DNA from: Finegoldia magna ATCC 29328
GTDB lineage: Bacteria > Bacillota > Clostridia > Tissierellales > Peptoniphilaceae
Length of the DNA stretch: 64,000 nucleotides
Assembly: GCF_000010185.1 (NCBI RefSeq)
Contig: NC_010376.1
Location: 310,001-374,000 of the forward strand
Direction: 5' to 3'
Shown: positions 36,603 to 44,141 of the stretch, piece after piece
How the letters are laid out: the number at the start of each line of letters is the position of its first letter
Numbering within the stretch: position 1 is the first letter of the stretch
Program-made: the position numbers and the translations under genes
Notes under the pieces: model-generated
Seen by the model: the letters and a program-made list of their open reading frames with translations, nothing else
What the model was told of the DNA's origin: nothing
The model's database searches: none

Positions 36603-37757
36603 ATGAGAAAAAATGTATTAAAAGGAACAACTTTGCTACTAGCTTTGTGTTTTAGCGTTGGAGCAGTTGGATGTCAAAAATCTAGTGGAAATACAGGCAA
36701 AGATTCAAAGGTGGTTAGTCCAAAAGAGGCTGGTATGAAAAACGATAAAAAACAAGAAAACGAAAAATTCAAACCTGCTGATTATTCATTACAACCAAAA
36801 GATGAATTCGTGTATGAGTTTTTGGGATTGAAGTTCAAACTTCCAGAACAAGTTAAAAAAGATATGACGAATAAGAAGATTGCGATGTTGGATGAACAAA
36901 GTCCAATCGACAAAGAATTGAAATACGCTATGCTTACTTTCAGCAAATTAACTGAAGAACAAAAAAATGCAGTAGTGGATAAAATGGGTGATGGATACGA
37001 AAAATGGCAAAAAGAATTGGAAAGAGTCGGCACTATTGGAATGTTTGATAAAAAAATGTCTGAAGCTGACATTTCCAAGATTACAAAATGTGACAATCAC
37101 AAGAAAATTGGCGAATCCAAAGATGGTAAGTTCACTTACTACATAAGTTCAAAAGGTAAAATGGACGAAGGTTTTGCAAAAGAATTCGCCCAAACTCAAA
37201 TCGATATTATAGATAAAAAACCACGTCCTGAAAATGGATTTGTATTATCTGAAAAAACTGATTTGGAAAACACAGAAGCATTTGACAAAAAATCTGTGAA
37301 GGGATTAGGTAATTTATCTACAAAAGATATCAATGGCAAACAATTTACAAGCAAAGATTTTGAAAAATACGATCTTACAATGGTAAATGTGTTTGCAACT
37401 TGGTGTAGTGCTTGTGTGAACGAAATTCCAGATTTATCGGAAGTTTCCAAAGAAATGAAATCCAAAGGAGTAAACATTGTAGGTGTTGTTACAGATACTG
37501 TAGATGATAATGGCACTAATAATGATGCATTGCAAAAATCAAAATTAATCCAAGAAAAAACAAAAGCTTCATATCCGTTCTTGATGCCAGACAAATCGAA
37601 TTTTAACGGCAGATTAAACGGAATTCAAGCGATGCCCGAAACTTTCTTCGTAGATAAAAAAGGAAACATCGTCGGAGAAACTTATTCTGGCGCAAAATCA
37701 AAAGAAGAATGGAAACAAGTTATCGAAAAAGAATTGGCTAATTTGAAAAGCAAATAA
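36603..37757 (+). CDS. TlpA-like thioredoxin lipoprotein
   Basis: Exported thiol-disulfide protein, 384 residues. ATG 36603 follows GGAGGAAATT and gives a signal peptide ending in the lipobox-like AVGC; an upstream in-frame start would bury it. After a Lys/Ser-rich linker there is an N-terminal domain I do not recognise (about 65-220), then a TlpA/AlkhydroperoxideC-like thioredoxin domain (about 225-384) with the active site FATWCSACVNEIP and the cis-Pro region IQAMPETFFVDKKG. The active-site dipeptide is SA. It is followed by a CxxC micro-protein and a polyferredoxin, suggesting these three form an electron path to surface thiols. The first palindrome after the degV terminator (36551-36564) may regulate it. 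Confidence 0.9.
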   Translation: MRKNVLKGTTLLLALCFSVGAVGCQKSSGNTGKDSKVVSPKEAGMKNDKKQENEKFKPADYSLQPKDEFVYEFLGLKFKLPEQVKKDMTNKKIAMLDEQSPIDKELKYAMLTFSKLTEEQKNAVVDKMGDGYEKWQKELERVGTIGMFDKKMSEADISKITKCDNHKKIGESKDGKFTYYISSKGKMDEGFAKEFAQTQIDIIDKKPRPENGFVLSEKTDLENTEAFDKKSVKGLGNLSTKDINGKQFTSKDFEKYDLTMVNVFATWCSACVNEIPDLSEVSKEMKSKGVNIVGVVTDTVDDNGTNNDALQKSKLIQEKTKASYPFLMPDKSNFNGRLNGIQAMPETFFVDKKGNIVGETYSGAKSKEEWKQVIEKELANLKSK

Positions 37758-37771
37758 AATTGGTGATTCAA

Positions 37772-37924
37772 ATGTACAAAAAATTTATTCATAGTCGAGT
37801 ATTTTCGGTCATGATTTTGTGTTTATCAGTTGGTATGATTTATTACGGATACAACAACGGTGAAGTCAAAGTCGTGTTGGATAAGGCTATAAGAATTTGC
37901 ATGGAGTGTATTGGAATTGGATAA
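37772..37924 (+). CDS. CD1871A-type CXXC small protein
   Basis: A 50-residue gene. It encodes a basic N terminus, one membrane helix (about 10-27) and a C-terminal ICMECIGIG motif with CxxC, which matches the small CXXC proteins (named after Clostridioides CD1871A) found next to NapH-like ferredoxins and TlpA proteins. The start ATG follows TGGTG; the end overlaps the TTG start of the ferredoxin gene by 14 nt, so they are likely coupled. Role unknown; perhaps it passes electrons between the ferredoxin protein and the external thioredoxin. Confidence 0.85.
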   Translation: MYKKFIHSRVFSVMILCLSVGMIYYGYNNGEVKVVLDKAIRICMECIGIG

Positions 37925-38816
37925 AATAAAAAATTTACTAAAGTTTGGAGATAAGAAAAATAAGTACAAAGTAATGGATAATTTCAGACACGCTTTCCAA
38001 TCACTGTGGTTTTTGATTACAAATTCTTATGTTGAGGGATTTAAAACCGGGAAAATTTACGGCGGAAATTTGAAAAAAATCTGTGTTCCGGGCATGAATT
38101 GTTATTCGTGCCCTGGAGCAAAAGGAAGTTGTCCAATAGGTTCGTTACAGGCTGTAATTGGAAATTCAAATTTCAAGTTTAGCTATTACATAGTCGGATT
38201 TTTGTTTTTTATTGGCGCATTGATGGGAAGATTTGTGTGTGGATGGTTGTGTCCATTTGGATTGATTCAGGATTTACTGTACAAAATTCCTTTTTTCAAA
38301 AAAATAAAAACTTTCAAATACGATAAACATTTGAGAAAATTAAAATATTTTATTTTGCTAATTTTCGTAATAATTTTGCCGATGTTCTTGGTTGATATTT
38401 TGGGACAAGGATCGCCGTATTTTTGTAAACTTATTTGTCCAATAGGAATGCTTGAAGGTGGAATTCCTCTGGTACTGCTCAATAAAAGCATGAGAGGTGC
38501 GATTGGGTTTTTGTATTATTGGAAAGGAAGTATTCTAATAATTACAATTTTACTTTCAATAATAATTTATAGACCTTTCTGTAAATATATTTGTCCTTTG
38601 GGTGCGATTTATTCGTTTTTCAATCCGATTTCTATTTTCAAATATAGATTGGACAAAGATAAATGTATAAGTTGTGGAAGATGTAAGAAAGTGTGTCAAA
38701 TGAACATCGATCCTACTAAAAATTGCAATCACAAAGAATGCATCAGATGTGCTAGATGCAAAAACGCCTGTCCAGTTGATGCTATAAGTTGTGGAATAAA
38801 GGATAAAAACAGATAA
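37911..38816 (+). CDS. NapH/YccM-like membrane polyferredoxin
   Basis: 301 residues with several membrane helices and many cysteine motifs: MNCYSCPGAKGSCPIG, GWLCPFGLIQDLLY, FCKYICPLGAIY, and two C-terminal 4Fe-4S clusters (CISCGRCKKVC, CIRCARCKNACPVDAIS). The plan matches NapH-type quinol-linked electron carriers. The start is TTG 37911 (GGAGTG upstream), overlapping the small CxxC gene by 14 nt. It probably moves electrons across the membrane for the neighbouring thioredoxin; this is inferred from context only. Confidence 0.88.
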   Translation: MELDKIKNLLKFGDKKNKYKVMDNFRHAFQSLWFLITNSYVEGFKTGKIYGGNLKKICVPGMNCYSCPGAKGSCPIGSLQAVIGNSNFKFSYYIVGFLFFIGALMGRFVCGWLCPFGLIQDLLYKIPFFKKIKTFKYDKHLRKLKYFILLIFVIILPMFLVDILGQGSPYFCKLICPIGMLEGGIPLVLLNKSMRGAIGFLYYWKGSILIITILLSIIIYRPFCKYICPLGAIYSFFNPISIFKYRLDKDKCISCGRCKKVCQMNIDPTKNCNHKECIRCARCKNACPVDAISCGIKDKNR

Positions 38817-38949: not shown

Positions 38950-39699
38950 GTGAAAAAACTTTTATTAACTTTAGCATTAGTATCAGCTTTAACTGTTACT
39001 GGATGTTCAAATAATACAGAAAAACCAGCTGACAATAATGCTAAAACAGAACAAAAAACTGAAAACAAATCAGAAGAAAAAGCTGCAATCAAAGAAATGA
39101 AGGGCGCAGATCTTGAAGCCATCGAACAAGACAAGAAGAAAAAAGAAACTGTATTGGTTGTTGATGTTAGAAGCAAAGATGAATATGACCAAGGTCACGT
39201 TAAATGGGCTATTAACATGCCAATCGACACTTTCGAACAAGAAGTTTCAAAATTAGATGCTTACAAAGACAAAGCTGTAATTACAATTTGCAACAGCGGT
39301 AAGAAGAGCCAAAAAGCTGCTGAAGTTTTAGTTAACAATGGATTCAAAGATGTTACAAACGCAGAAGGCGTTAAGAAATTTGAATACAAATTAGTTAAAT
39401 TTGCTAACATTTTACCAGCTGATTTAGTAAAAGCTTCTGAAGATACAAACAACGTTATAGTTGATGTAAGAGATAAGAAAGATTATGACAAAGGTCACAT
39501 CAAAAATGCTATCAGCATGCCTTTAGATGAAGCTGATGCAAGATTATCAGAAATTCCTACAGATAAACCAGTTTACACTTATTGCTATTCTGGAAATAAA
39601 TCTGGTCAATTAGCTCAAAAATTAGTTGAAAGAGGAAACAAAGACGTATTCAACTCTTTAGATGGAACTAAAGAACACGACTACGAATTAGTAAAATAA
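38950..39699 (+). CDS. Tandem-rhodanese lipoprotein
   Basis: 249-residue lipoprotein. The signal peptide ends in the lipobox VTGC, followed by a Lys/Glu-rich linker. Two rhodanese domains follow (about 55-145 and 150-249), each with an active-site Cys: VITICNSGKKSQKAAEVL and VYTYCYSGNKSGQLAQKL, and each with a conserved DVR plus GH (VDVRSKDEYDQGHVKWAIN; VDVRDKKDYDKGHIKNAIS). Rhodaneses transfer or bind sulfur on a Cys persulfide. The start is GTG 38950 with AGGAGG. It lies between the thiol-redox set and the glycosyltransferase/radical SAM cluster. Confidence 0.92.
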   Translation: MKKLLLTLALVSALTVTGCSNNTEKPADNNAKTEQKTENKSEEKAAIKEMKGADLEAIEQDKKKKETVLVVDVRSKDEYDQGHVKWAINMPIDTFEQEVSKLDAYKDKAVITICNSGKKSQKAAEVLVNNGFKDVTNAEGVKKFEYKLVKFANILPADLVKASEDTNNVIVDVRDKKDYDKGHIKNAISMPLDEADARLSEIPTDKPVYTYCYSGNKSGQLAQKLVERGNKDVFNSLDGTKEHDYELVK

Positions 39700-39711: not shown

Positions 39712-39741
39712 AAGCGGCTCATATTTTGGGCCGCTTTTTTT
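39712..39741 (+). terminator. Intrinsic terminator or attenuator before the DUF2064 gene
   Basis: AAGCGGC (39712-39718) pairs with GCCGCTT (39730-39736), plus TC/GG pairs, then TTTTTT. It ends 13 nt before the next start codon, so it could also act as a conditional attenuator of the downstream cluster. Confidence 0.8.
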
Positions 39742-39753
39742 ACAGGAGATAAA

Positions 39754-41235
39754 ATGAACGCAGTAATTTTGATGACCAAAATTCCAAATAAAAATTCTAA
39801 AACTAGATTGTCGACTATTTTATCAGAAAATGAAAGAATAAAATTCAGCGGCAATTTGATTAATAAAAACGTAAATATTATCAAAAAATACAAAGTTTTC
39901 TTATCTCTAACGCCAGACGAATTATTTGAAGATTACACGAAAAATTCTCCTTATGATTGTATCAGACAAACTGGAGATGATATTGGTCAAAGGATGAAAA
40001 ATTCCATAAAAGAAGTTTTGTCACGAGGATATTCCAAGGTGGTTTTAATTGGCTCAGATATCATTGATTTTGATGGTGAAATTTTTGATGAAGCTTTTGA
40101 TAAATTAGAGGATTATGACGTAGTATTCAGCCCGACAGAAGATGGCGGCTACAGTTTGATTGGGATGAAAAAATCACACGATGTTTTGTTTGAAAACAAA
40201 AAATACTCCAATCCAAATGTAGAAAATGATTTGGAAAATAGTTTGATTGAACATGATTTGTCTTATTATAAACTGAAAGAAACCCACGATATTGACACTG
40301 ACATTGATTTTGTAAAATACATATCCAAATCAAACAACGTGAAATTACTTGGTAAAGGCGAGTACAATTCAAATTATCTAATAGATGATGATTATTTGAT
40401 AAGAATCGCGCGTGGCTCACAAATGCATTTGGATAATCAAATTGAATACGAATACAAGGCTCTCAAATTTTTAGAAAAATCAAATGTAACAGCCAAGGCT
40501 TACGATTTGAAAAAAGATGAATTATCAGGGATTTCTTATCTTATTGAAGAATATTTGATAGGAAGGGATTTGGATTATCATACTGATTTAAAAATCGCAG
40601 CATATTTACTTTCACAAATTCACTCACTGGATGTTATTGGACAAGATTTTATAAAAGCGGACAGTCCTTTTGAGATGATGTTCGACGAATTTACGCAGAT
40701 GTTTTCTCATTATCAAAAATGGCACAAGAAAAACAATAATACCGAAGAAAAAATTTCAGATATGCTCAAATACATCAAAAATCTGGGACTTACTTCTTCA
40801 CTTCAAAATCCATGTCTTATCAACACTGAACTCAACAATAAAAATTTTATCATAGGAGATAAATCTTACGTTATAGATTGGGAAAAGCCGATTATAGGAG
40901 AGCGTGAACAAGATTTGGCGCACTTTTTGGCACCGACGACGACTTTTTGGAAGACAGATGTAATTTTTGACAACGACACAATGGATGATTTCTTAGATGA
41001 ATACGATAAATTATCAAAAACAAAAGTAGACAGGGAAAAATTCGTAAAATATTTGCTGTTTACGTGTCTCAGAGGAATAACTTGGTGCTCAATGGCATAC
41101 ACTCAATATGTTGATGAAAACAGGGATAATGGATTTACTTTTGAGAAGATAAAAGCGTATTTGTCGGATGAATTTTTGGATAATATATGGGAGTTTATAA
41201 AAGCGAATGATTTCAGTAATAGTGCCGGTGTATAA
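39754..41235 (+). CDS. DUF2064 glycosyltransferase-like / aminoglycoside-phosphotransferase-fold fusion
   Basis: 493 residues, two domains. Residues 1-195 match DUF2064, the CofC-like nucleotidyl/glycosyltransferase family called TIGR04282 (MTKIPNKNSKTRLSTIL, LIGSDIID, FSPTEDGGYSLIGM). Residues about 196-480 form a phosphotransferase (APH/choline-kinase-like) domain: GKGEYNSNYLI, QIEYEYKALKFL, VIDWEKPIIGEREQDLAHFL. The catalytic loop differs from the usual HGDxxxxN: it reads N357-T-E359-LNNK-N364, so the Asp is a Glu. Such fusions suggest one polypeptide that builds and phosphorylates a sugar-like intermediate. It starts the five-gene overlapping cluster. Confidence 0.85.
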   Translation: MNAVILMTKIPNKNSKTRLSTILSENERIKFSGNLINKNVNIIKKYKVFLSLTPDELFEDYTKNSPYDCIRQTGDDIGQRMKNSIKEVLSRGYSKVVLIGSDIIDFDGEIFDEAFDKLEDYDVVFSPTEDGGYSLIGMKKSHDVLFENKKYSNPNVENDLENSLIEHDLSYYKLKETHDIDTDIDFVKYISKSNNVKLLGKGEYNSNYLIDDDYLIRIARGSQMHLDNQIEYEYKALKFLEKSNVTAKAYDLKKDELSGISYLIEEYLIGRDLDYHTDLKIAAYLLSQIHSLDVIGQDFIKADSPFEMMFDEFTQMFSHYQKWHKKNNNTEEKISDMLKYIKNLGLTSSLQNPCLINTELNNKNFIIGDKSYVIDWEKPIIGEREQDLAHFLAPTTTFWKTDVIFDNDTMDDFLDEYDKLSKTKVDREKFVKYLLFTCLRGITWCSMAYTQYVDENRDNGFTFEKIKAYLSDEFLDNIWEFIKANDFSNSAGV

Positions 41236-41869
41236 CGAATCTGATAACATAGACAAGTTCATCGATCGTCTGGATGTTTTTGATGATGAGTTCGAGGTGA
41301 TTTTCAGCGTGAGTGGCGATGACGATACGTTTGAAAAAATAAAAAAACGCGGATATAATCCAATCAAAAGCATCAAAGGTCGTGGCAATCAAATTATAAA
41401 TGGAATTTTAAATTCAAATGGGGAAATAATTTTGATTCTTCATGCGGATACTTTTTTTAGAGAAAATCCAAAAGAAGAAATCAAATCAATTTTAGAAAAT
41501 TATAAAATGGGTTGTTTCAGTATTTCCTTTGTTCCAAAACAGTTCATAATGCAAATTGTGGCATTTAATTCCAGTAATCGTGTCAGACAAAGAAACATAG
41601 CATTCGGAGATCAGGGGATGTTTTTTACGAGAGAGTTTTACGACGAGATGGGTGGATTCAAAAACATAGATTTAATGGAAGATTACGATTTTTCGATTAG
41701 GGTAAAGGAAAAAGGATACACAATCTTCCTATCAAAAATGAAGATATATTCTTCATCGCGTAGATTTCAAAAAAATGGTCCTTTTAGGACTATGTGGATG
41801 ATGCAAAAATGCCAATATATGTATCGCAAGGGGGAAAGCGTAGATGATATCAAACAAAAGTACAAATGA
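41207..41869 (+). CDS. Family 2 glycosyltransferase (TIGR04283-like)
   Basis: 220-residue GT-A glycosyltransferase. Visible: ISVIVPVYNESDNIDKFID at the N terminus, GRGNQIINGILNSNGEIILILHADT with the D-x-D-like metal motif (HADT), NIAFGDQGMFFTREFYDEMGGF and LMEDYDFSIRVKEKG. This sub-group (TIGR04283, mycofactocin-MftF-like) usually pairs with a DUF2064 protein, as here. It overlaps the fusion gene by 29 nt and the Fe-S gene by 26 nt. Confidence 0.87.
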   Translation: MISVIVPVYNESDNIDKFIDRLDVFDDEFEVIFSVSGDDDTFEKIKKRGYNPIKSIKGRGNQIINGILNSNGEIILILHADTFFRENPKEEIKSILENYKMGCFSISFVPKQFIMQIVAFNSSNRVRQRNIAFGDQGMFFTREFYDEMGGFKNIDLMEDYDFSIRVKEKGYTIFLSKMKIYSSSRRFQKNGPFRTMWMMQKCQYMYRKGESVDDIKQKYK

Positions 41870-42791
41870 TTACTTACAAGAAGTAAAAGATAAGTGTATT
41901 GATTGCGGTAAATGTACGAAGAACTGCCCTTTTTTGACAAAATACAAGATTAATTTGAAAGATTTTGCAGACAGACAAGACTTGGCGTTTTCTTGTTTCT
42001 TGTGTCAAAAATGTAAAGCAGTGTGTCCAGTTGATTTGGATGGAAAAAAGATTTCTCTTATTTTAAGAAAACAAAATCCAAAATTTGAATCTGTGAAAAA
42101 ACAAAAAGAAAATTATTTCTTCAAAAACAAATCTAAAAGAAAAACAAAAGACTTGTTGTATTTGGGCTGTAATTTTCCAGCATTTTATCCAGACACAACA
42201 AAATATTTAATGGAATTGTTCAACAAAGAAGGATTTGATTATTCAATTGATTGTTGCAATCTTCCAAGTGATTTTACGGGATTTGAAAATAATTATATGG
42301 AAAGACTTGAGAAAGAACTCCAAGACAAAGAAGTGGAAAGAATTGTGTGCGTGTGTCCAAACTGTTTCCACAAATTCTACAAAAATTTGTCAGTAGAAGT
42401 TATCACGATTTTCAAATGGCTTGAAGAAAGAGATATGATACAAGACATTGATGAGGAAGTGAATGTGTTCTTCCCATGTTCTGACAGGTATAATCATATA
42501 ATGTTTGAAGAAATCAAACGACATATCAAAGGATTTAACAATAAATACATAAGTACAAACTGCTGTGGTGCTGGTGGAATTGCAGGAAAAAGCGAAAAAG
42601 ACATCGCAACACAAATGCAAAACTCCATCAAAAACGAAAAAATGTATACTTATTGCGCAACTTGTTCATCCAAGTTTGTGGCAAATAATGAAGTGCACCA
42701 TTTTGTAAGTAAAATGGTTGGCATAGATGAAAAATGCGATCCAAGCTTTTTCAAAAATGCATTAAAGGGGAAATTTAGGGGGAGAAAATGA
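41844..42791 (+). CDS. Ferredoxin/CCG-domain (HdrB/GlpC-like) redox protein
   Basis: 315 residues. Two 4Fe-4S motifs at the N terminus (C18, C21, C24, C28 and C51, C54, C57, C61) are followed by two cysteine-rich CCG-type modules (GCNFPAF...DCCNLPSDFTG, then CVCPNCF; and FFPCSDR...STNCCGAGGIAG, then CATCSSKF). Such proteins bind Fe-S clusters that reduce disulfides or carry electrons, as in heterodisulfide reductase HdrB and GlpC. It may feed electrons to the radical SAM enzyme or reduce a thiol product. It overlaps both neighbours. Confidence 0.85.
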   Translation: MISNKSTNDYLQEVKDKCIDCGKCTKNCPFLTKYKINLKDFADRQDLAFSCFLCQKCKAVCPVDLDGKKISLILRKQNPKFESVKKQKENYFFKNKSKRKTKDLLYLGCNFPAFYPDTTKYLMELFNKEGFDYSIDCCNLPSDFTGFENNYMERLEKELQDKEVERIVCVCPNCFHKFYKNLSVEVITIFKWLEERDMIQDIDEEVNVFFPCSDRYNHIMFEEIKRHIKGFNNKYISTNCCGAGGIAGKSEKDIATQMQNSIKNEKMYTYCATCSSKFVANNEVHHFVSKMVGIDEKCDPSFFKNALKGKFRGRK

Positions 42792-43708
42792 GATTCGAAG
42801 ATAGAATATCAGAAAAATTTAAGAAAACAGGTGACATTACAACTCTACAATTAAATATTACTGAAAAATGTAATTTGCGTTGTAAACACTGTCACATTAT
42901 GAAAAACAGTGAAAATTTAGAAATGTCCAAGGAAACTATGCAAGACTGCCTTAAATTTTTGGATAATCACAAGATGAAAACTGTGGATATTACAGGCGGA
43001 GAACCGACAACACATCCAGAAATCGTGAGGTTTATGAAGGAATGTTTGAAAAGAGTAGACGAACTTATTATTCGTACGAATGCAACAGATATCGAAAAAA
43101 ACAAAGAATTAATGGATTTATTTGACAAAGAAAAAATCAAAATTGTCGTATCTCTTCCATGCTACACTCAAGATAATGTCGACAGCCAAAGAGGAGATGG
43201 AGTGTTCGACAAAGTCATAGCTAACTTGAAGAAGCTTAACGAAATGGGATACGGCACTGAAAAAGAGTTGGATTTGGTTTACAATCCACTTGGAGGATTC
43301 TTGCCACCAGAACAATCCAATCTTCAATCAGATTACGAACGCGAATTAAAAAAGAAAGATGTTGTGTTCAGTAATTTGTTTACAATTACAAATATGCCTA
43401 TTGGATATTTCAGAGATTTCTTAATCGAAAAAGGCGAATACGAAGATTATATGAAATTGTTGGAAGATAATTACAACGAAGAAACTGTTGAAAATATCAT
43501 GTGCAGATTCCAAATTTCTGTGGATAGTTTGGGAAATCTTCACGATTGCGACTTTCATTTAGCAGAAAAAGTGCCAATGAAAGATTATAAAAACATCAAA
43601 GATTTGATTGATGTTGATGATTTGTCCAGAGAAATCGTGTGTAAAGATTATTGCTACGGATGTACTGCAGGAAGTGGTTCAAGTTGTGGAGGTGCATTGG
43701 ATGAATAA
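42788..43708 (+). CDS. ArsS-like radical SAM protein with DUF3641 C terminus
   Basis: 306 residues. The radical SAM motif C28-x3-C32-x2-C35 (EKCNLRCKHCH) is followed by DITGGEPTTHPE. The C-terminal region (LHDCDFHLAEKVP..., C285, C289, C292, C300 in a CxxxCxxC and Cys-rich tail with GSGSSCGG) matches the DUF3641/ArsS family, annotated as arsenosugar biosynthesis. In the classic ArsM/ArsS pathway the enzyme uses its 5'-deoxyadenosyl chemistry on methylarsenicals, but no ArsM or arsenic gene is in this window, so the substrate is open. It overlaps its neighbours by 4 and 8 nt. Confidence 0.87.
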   Translation: MRFEDRISEKFKKTGDITTLQLNITEKCNLRCKHCHIMKNSENLEMSKETMQDCLKFLDNHKMKTVDITGGEPTTHPEIVRFMKECLKRVDELIIRTNATDIEKNKELMDLFDKEKIKIVVSLPCYTQDNVDSQRGDGVFDKVIANLKKLNEMGYGTEKELDLVYNPLGGFLPPEQSNLQSDYERELKKKDVVFSNLFTITNMPIGYFRDFLIEKGEYEDYMKLLEDNYNEETVENIMCRFQISVDSLGNLHDCDFHLAEKVPMKDYKNIKDLIDVDDLSREIVCKDYCYGCTAGSGSSCGGALDE

Positions 43709-44141
43709 ATTAACGAATGAAGAAATTTGGCAACAATTTACTGAAGGGATAGATTGCGCACAAGTTGTATTGAGATATTTTGCAGATGATTTGGGAGTTG
43801 ACAAAAAACTTCTTACAAAAGTCGCATCGCCATTTACAGGTGGTATGTACAAGGGAATGACTTGTGGAGCAGTAACTGGTGCCTACATGGTTTTGGGGAT
43901 CAAATACGGCCATTCTAAGCCAAATGAAGGCGAGAAGAAAGTCGAACTTATCAAAAAAATGTTCGAATTCGATACCAAATTCAAGGAAAAACAATCAACG
44001 ATAATTTGCGAAGAAATATTGGGAGATAATATAGCAGAAAATCTCGAAAAAATCGAACAAGAAAACACAATGCAAAAAAAATGTCCACAAGCTGTGAACG
44101 ATGCGATAGATATATTAGAGGAAATATTTGAAGAAAAATAA
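43701..44141 (+). CDS. C_GCAxxG_C_C-family redox protein
   Basis: 146-residue small redox protein of the C_GCAxxG_C_C family, with cysteines at 19 (GIDCAQVV), 55 (MTCGAVTGAYMVLG), 103 (IICEEILG) and 128 (KKCPQAV), exactly the family pattern. I choose ATG 43701, whose GTGGAGGTG ribosome binding site lies within the radical SAM gene; an upstream in-frame start lacks one. It closes the cluster and precedes a strong terminator. Family role unknown; the arrangement of four Cys suggests a metal or disulfide centre. Confidence 0.87.
   Translation: MNKLTNEEIWQQFTEGIDCAQVVLRYFADDLGVDKKLLTKVASPFTGGMYKGMTCGAVTGAYMVLGIKYGHSKPNEGEKKVELIKKMFEFDTKFKEKQSTIICEEILGDNIAENLEKIEQENTMQKKCPQAVNDAIDILEEIFEEK

Follow-up and report, generated by a model that had tools for sequence, protein, structure and literature searches.

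The window analysed here is a stretch of 64,000 nucleotides from the genome of Finegoldia magna ATCC 29328, a skin and mucosal bacterium whose 1,986,740 bases lie in two contigs, the larger being 1,797,577 bases long. As judged from their arrangement, six genes of the window are one operon, which encodes a rhodanese protein, a DUF2064–kinase fusion protein, a glycosyltransferase, a CCG protein, the radical S-adenosylmethionine (SAM) protein ArsS and a C_GCAxxG_C_C protein. The balance of evidence tips slightly towards the view that this unit consists of a core sugar-activation module and an arsenic add-on, the module serving a general pathway from nucleosides to glycosides. ArsM-like genes track ArsS among related genomes (26/29 versus 10/101) and adjoin it in three relatives (L043, L044 and L046), suggesting that methylated arsenic is the most likely substrate of ArsS, just as in the synthesis of arsenosugars. 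The core genes are also found in genomes that have no arsenic enzyme, and so the databank label "arsenosugar" for the core families is probably only half right.

The last five genes of the operon, all on the + strand, were already recognized as a unit in the initial annotation, and their positions and family names have been verified. The DUF2064/TIGR04282 CofC-like nucleotidyltransferase with its attached APH-type small-molecule kinase domain (39754-41235) is followed by the family-2 glycosyltransferase (41207-41869; TIGR04283, 217 bits, cut-off 182), the 4Fe-4S dicluster/CCG (HdrB-like) protein (41844-42791; PF02754, 41 bits, plus Fer4), the Cys form of ArsS (42788-43708) and the C_GCAxxG_C_C redox protein (43701-44141; PF09719, 106 bits). 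Successive genes overlap by 29, 26, 4 and 8 bases, the 4-base overlap between the CCG and ArsS genes being of the ATGA type, in agreement with translational coupling within one unit. The gene that usually heads the unit in relatives, encoding a tandem-rhodanese lipoprotein (38950-39699, + strand; PF00581, 118 bits in two stretches), had been missed.

Co-occurrence of ArsS, ArsM and the core genes

In a family sample of 130 genomes, ArsS is found in 29, and the two marker genes TIGR04282 and TIGR04283 are present together in 42, which are referred to as core-positive. All 29 genomes are within the 42 (p = 3e-19 by the Fisher test, which ignores kinship here and below). ArsM-like genes, called above 140 bits with a gap in the scores below this value down to 68 bits, are carried by 26 of the 29 genomes with ArsS and by 10 of the 101 without it (p = 4e-16). 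The long form of ArsM occurs in 14/29 and 0/101 of these genomes, respectively. In a phylum sample, TIGR04283 is present in 19 genomes, ArsS in 8 and both in 6, and the two ArsS-positive genomes without TIGR04283 above the cut-off have a weaker glycosyltransferase beside ArsS. ArsS is reported to act together with ArsM at the start of arsenosugar synthesis (PMC8552651), and adenosylation of arsenic by ArsS has been reported as well (PMC12159101).

ArsM genes elsewhere in the genome

The initial annotation doubted a role in arsenic metabolism since no arsenic gene was visible in the window. It is true that there is no ArsM among the genes around the cluster. However, a genome-wide search with the ArsM model gives two strong matches elsewhere in the same genome, with aquaporin-type and ArsR-like neighbours. 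On the strength of this search, an arsenic-free novel pathway, as the lack of a nearby ArsM might suggest, is rejected. ArsM and ArsS are not adjacent in F. magna, being about 175 kb apart. The long ArsM-like gene (C2:173632-174696) directly follows an aquaporin-type channel gene and encodes 354 residues with a Cys-rich tail. The alignment of its product with the arsenosugar ArsM model NF038099 covers almost the full length of both (residues 23-312 on positions 17-301 of 321), and Cys-56, Cys-151 and Cys-201 lie in contexts expected for As(III) binding. The second ArsM-like gene (C2:1796695-1797456; L076:11696-12457) comes after an ArsR-like gene, close to dnaA and the end of the contig, and its third metal-binding site is encoded by an in-frame UGA. 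Its product is probably a selenoprotein, which ordinary gene calling would truncate, and tRNA-Sec is present in the F. magna genome. F. magna is among the bacteria listed with this methyltransferase family in a published survey (PMC5398495).

The core module with and without ArsS

The core consists of the rhodanese, the DUF2064–kinase protein, two VTT membrane proteins, the glycosyltransferase, the CCG protein and the C_GCAxxG protein. Among the 130 family genomes, TIGR04282 and TIGR04283 are not restricted to those with ArsS. The gene order rhodanese, DUF2064–APH, VTT, VTT, glycosyltransferase and CCG is intact in G060, G061, G129, G131 and G146, which are free of ArsM, and the ordered core of three of them also contains C_GCAxxG. 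Core parts lie beside a different, Rv1681-like radical SAM protein in L157, L160 and L162, and an ArsR–ArsM pair adjoins them in L162. The Rv1681-like protein, with a C-terminal tail of the CxxCFATGTTCG type, stands in place of ArsS beside the core in L154 as well. The presence of ArsS changes state at least 11 times on a 57-row glycosyltransferase tree, and so its pattern does not reflect one single event.

These distributions bear on the explanation that all of the genes serve a dedicated canonical arsenosugar pathway and that the core without ArsS results from recent losses. In agreement with such a pathway, 29/29 ArsS-positive family genomes have both TIGR04282 and TIGR04283, which NCBIfam names arsenosugar glycosyltransferases, and ArsM is still present in 5 of the 13 core-positive genomes without ArsS. 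Of 14 control genomes, Synechococcus elongatus alone is above the cut-off for TIGR04282, TIGR04283 and TIGR04167 alike, which is also in line with the reading as a core with an arsenic add-on. However, the repeated state changes of ArsS, the intact and ordered cores without ArsM and the association of core parts with a different radical SAM protein argue against this explanation, which is considered unlikely. A genome-wide arsenic pathway, weighed in the initial annotation as a complete explanation, accounts for ArsS and leaves the other genes in genomes without ArsS and ArsM unexplained. Scattering of the five genes in relatives, named in the initial annotation as contrary evidence, is partly seen, as ArsS lies away from the rest of the set in some of them. 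The earlier suspicion that more than the textbook arsenosugar pathway is involved survives because the core exists without arsenic enzymes, a reason that had not been given.

Permeases, an ATPase and a substrate-binding protein of the YnjB type (469 bits, cut-off 203) are frequent additions to the core. So is a nucleoside hydrolase, which is part of the core or its neighbour in L092, L097, L099, L100, L104 and L106-L110. The cluster-type nucleoside hydrolase is present in 15/42 core-positive and 1/88 core-negative genomes. In F. magna, a YdjY–VTT pair (C2:277976-279904) and another VTT gene (C2:309253-309936) lie away from the window locus.

Several of these parts recur in the ydjXYZ-ynjABCDE(F) operon of Escherichia coli, which, according to PMC3688515, is activated by FNR and encodes predicted proteins. 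Homologues of YdjX and YdjZ (VTT), YdjY, YnjB, YnjC, YnjD and YnjE are found in or beside the core clusters of relatives, and so E. coli K-12 ydjX–ynjF (L172:3902-11904) has seven homologous parts in common with Peptoniphilaceae core clusters. YnjA was not counted as a homologue, as the AhpD model of the cluster gave no match. The E. coli operon is without DUF2064, TIGR04283, CCG and ArsS and has the cytidine diphosphate (CDP)-alcohol phosphatidyltransferase YnjF instead, and the window-type rhodanese is matched via a second rhodanese, not via that of the window. A cluster combining a pair of VTT proteins with YdjY and YnjBCD is not found at the window locus; YnjBCD is clustered with the core in relatives only. 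There is a tentative possibility that TIGR04282 and TIGR04283 are parts of a pathway widely used by bacteria for salvaging 5'-modified nucleosides, such as products of the 5'-deoxyadenosine type, into exported glycosides, with parts akin to E. coli ydjXYZ-ynjABCDE. ArsS or another radical SAM enzyme would plug into this pathway, so that anaerobes living on the human body would form glycosides that contain arsenic.

The ArsS protein

F. magna ArsS is a full-length match to TIGR04167 (377 bits, curated cut-off 300), with residues 15-304 on model positions 5-303 of 303, and also matches DUF3641 (168 bits). The alignment shows that the CX3CX2C radical SAM motif is intact (Cys-28, Cys-32 and Cys-35), that the C-terminal CYGCTAGxGSS(C/U)GG motif is present (CYGCTAGSGSSCGG) and that Cys-239, Cys-254, Cys-289, Cys-292 and Cys-300 are invariant. 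The closest named relative is ArsS of F. magna DSM 20470 (96%), and a search for related loci with the single protein gave only another F. magna strain. In many relatives, the GSSUGG part of the C-terminal motif contains an in-frame TGA (L035, L037, L038, L041, L043-L047, L049-L053 and L055), where F. magna has Cys.

F. magna ArsS belongs to a supported 10-row clade with GGEPT for GGAPE, TNATD for TNLT and DYC for NHC. These changes raise the possibility that ArsS of this clade has switched its substrate to a thiol or selenium compound and that the arsenic genes of the genome serve an unrelated detoxification. The rhodanese and CCG neighbours are compatible with sulfur chemistry, and ArsM occurs alone in 10 genomes without ArsS. 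However, long ArsM is still present in genomes with the GGEP form (G000, G078, G026-G029 and G032), every Cys at the substrate end of ArsS is retained, and GGEP is also found outside the clade (L039), so that a switch of substrate is improbable. Of the thiol-, metalloid- and selenium-type compounds to which the initial annotation linked the making or attaching of a phosphorylated sugar-like group, a metalloid is supported as the probable substrate of the radical SAM enzyme.

The DUF2064–kinase fusion protein

Residues 4-185, the N-terminal part of the fusion protein, match TIGR04282 (159 bits against a cut-off of 134), and the kinase domain, which matches APH PF01636 (40 bits), spans about residues 196-480. 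The KTRL, GSD, DGGY and DID motifs of DUF2064 are all intact, suggesting that this part is a full-length CofC-like nucleotidyltransferase. In a structure model of the fused protein with a predicted local distance difference test (pLDDT) value of 88, the N-terminal domain resembles 3cgx, a putative nucleotide-diphospho-sugar transferase of DUF2064 fold from Desulfovibrio (E 2.3e-30 by profile, Z 22.8 by fold), which has no kinase domain or known function. The C-terminal domain resembles small-molecule kinases (Z 19-22), and the fold search cannot tell sugar 1-kinase substrates from choline kinase substrates. Searches of solved structures yielded 3cgx and radical SAM enzymes of a generic kind but gave no further clue to function, and no function for DUF2064, TIGR04283 or DUF3641 was found in the literature searched.

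In the LicA–LicC system, a choline kinase acts first and a cytidylyltransferase follows. The pairing of a kinase with a nucleotidyltransferase is shared with F. magna, where both are in one chain, but there is no homology in order or substrate evidence, and F. magna has N-T-E for the HxD of the kinase. An envelope or lipid pathway, in which a LicA/LicC-like kinase and nucleotidyltransferase act on a small alcohol, VTT moves the lipid product and arsenic is incidental, is highly doubtful: the match of the kinase fold to LicA (4r77, Z 19.4), weak matches of the VTT proteins to undecaprenyl-phosphate transporters and a flippase-like gene joining the core in L162, L157, L160 and L154 point to it, but the fold match does not set it apart from N-acetylhexosamine 1-kinase (Z 19.7) and homoserine kinase (Z 20.4), and the nucleoside hydrolase and the ArsS–ArsM linkage are left unexplained.

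Proposed pathway

The reading of the window unit as a core module with an arsenic add-on leads to the following scheme. ArsM would methylate As(III) to dimethylarsenite, and ArsS, by its known reaction, would transfer the 5'-deoxyadenosyl group of SAM to the methylated arsenic. A nucleosidase would then strip adenine to leave an arsenic-bearing ribose, which the kinase and DUF2064 domains would convert to a nucleotide-activated sugar. The TIGR04283 enzyme would move the activated sugar onto glycerol, a lipid or another acceptor, and the Fe-S, rhodanese and C_GCAxxG proteins may provide reduced thiol or arsenic chemistry. Where ArsS is lacking, this core would process another nucleoside-derived sugar. 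The kinase, nucleotidyltransferase and glycosyltransferase route to a sugar-like product suggested in the initial annotation is supported.

Several observations weigh against this scheme. No ArsM is detected in three ArsS-positive genomes (G031, G040 and G092, the last being 81% complete), and the core markers occur without ArsS in 13 of the 42 core-positive genomes, 8 of which are also without ArsM. Both ArsM-like genes of F. magna score 196-207 bits, under the NF008823 cut-off of 263, and so their assignment as ArsM rests on similarity and site residues; the long one scores 107 bits with the AsSugarArsM model (NF038099), the cut-off of which is 400. The cluster-type nucleoside hydrolase is missing from the F. 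magna genome, which has another inosine-uridine (IU)-type hydrolase and a methylthioadenosine/S-adenosylhomocysteine (MTA/SAH) nucleosidase. The catalytic HxD of APH is replaced by N-T-E in 16/16 fused copies aligned, and so phosphotransfer is not assured; the metal-binding Asp of IDWE is kept.

The cyanobacterial arsenosugar pathway of Synechocystis, in which the ArsM and ArsS steps alone have been characterised (PMC8552651 and its reference 22), shares with F. magna ArsS above the cut-off, a genomic ArsM, TIGR04282 and TIGR04283. F. magna differs in that ArsM is unlinked and the radical SAM protein is of the GGEPT clade, and it adds the kinase domain on DUF2064, the CCG Fe-S protein, C_GCAxxG and the rhodanese.

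The head of the operon and its surroundings

Most relatives with a compact cluster begin it with the rhodanese lipoprotein, as in the window. The rhodanese gene is directly 5' of the DUF2064 gene in L040, L042, L048, L051-L055 and L057 and also in L093-L097, L100, L101 and L113-L116. In the window, an intrinsic terminator (39712-39736, + strand) with a 10-pair stem followed by a U run separates the two genes, 18 bases 5' of the DUF2064 start codon. Most relatives have a hairpin with a U run at this intergenic place, namely L051-L055, L093, L097, L101, L110 and L113-L116, and longer stems are visible in the gap in L040, L042 and L100; L057, L095 and L096 have no such hairpin. The position of the hairpin is thus conserved with unrelated sequence within an otherwise tightly packed operon. 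The terminator is probably an attenuation or read-through point, and the rhodanese would then be the most abundant product.

Upstream of the operon on the + strand, a TlpA/ResA-like lipoprotein (36609-37757) and a NapH-like membrane ferredoxin (37911-38816) may be accessories of the ArsS unit. Such a pair also adjoins ArsS in a second genus, represented by two genomes (L056:5490-7570 and L059:12493-15854), where a two-component pair lies in between.

Implications

The names of two NCBIfam families should be used with caution, as the co-occurrence on which they rest breaks down in this bacterial family. TIGR04282 and TIGR04283 are tied here to an unexplained FNR-activated operon of E. coli. The literature found assigns the ArsM and ArsS steps only, and the fused kinase–nucleotidyltransferase and the glycosyltransferase are concrete candidates for the later steps of arsenosugar synthesis. 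Arsenosugar-type chemistry would thereby extend to human-associated anaerobic cocci.

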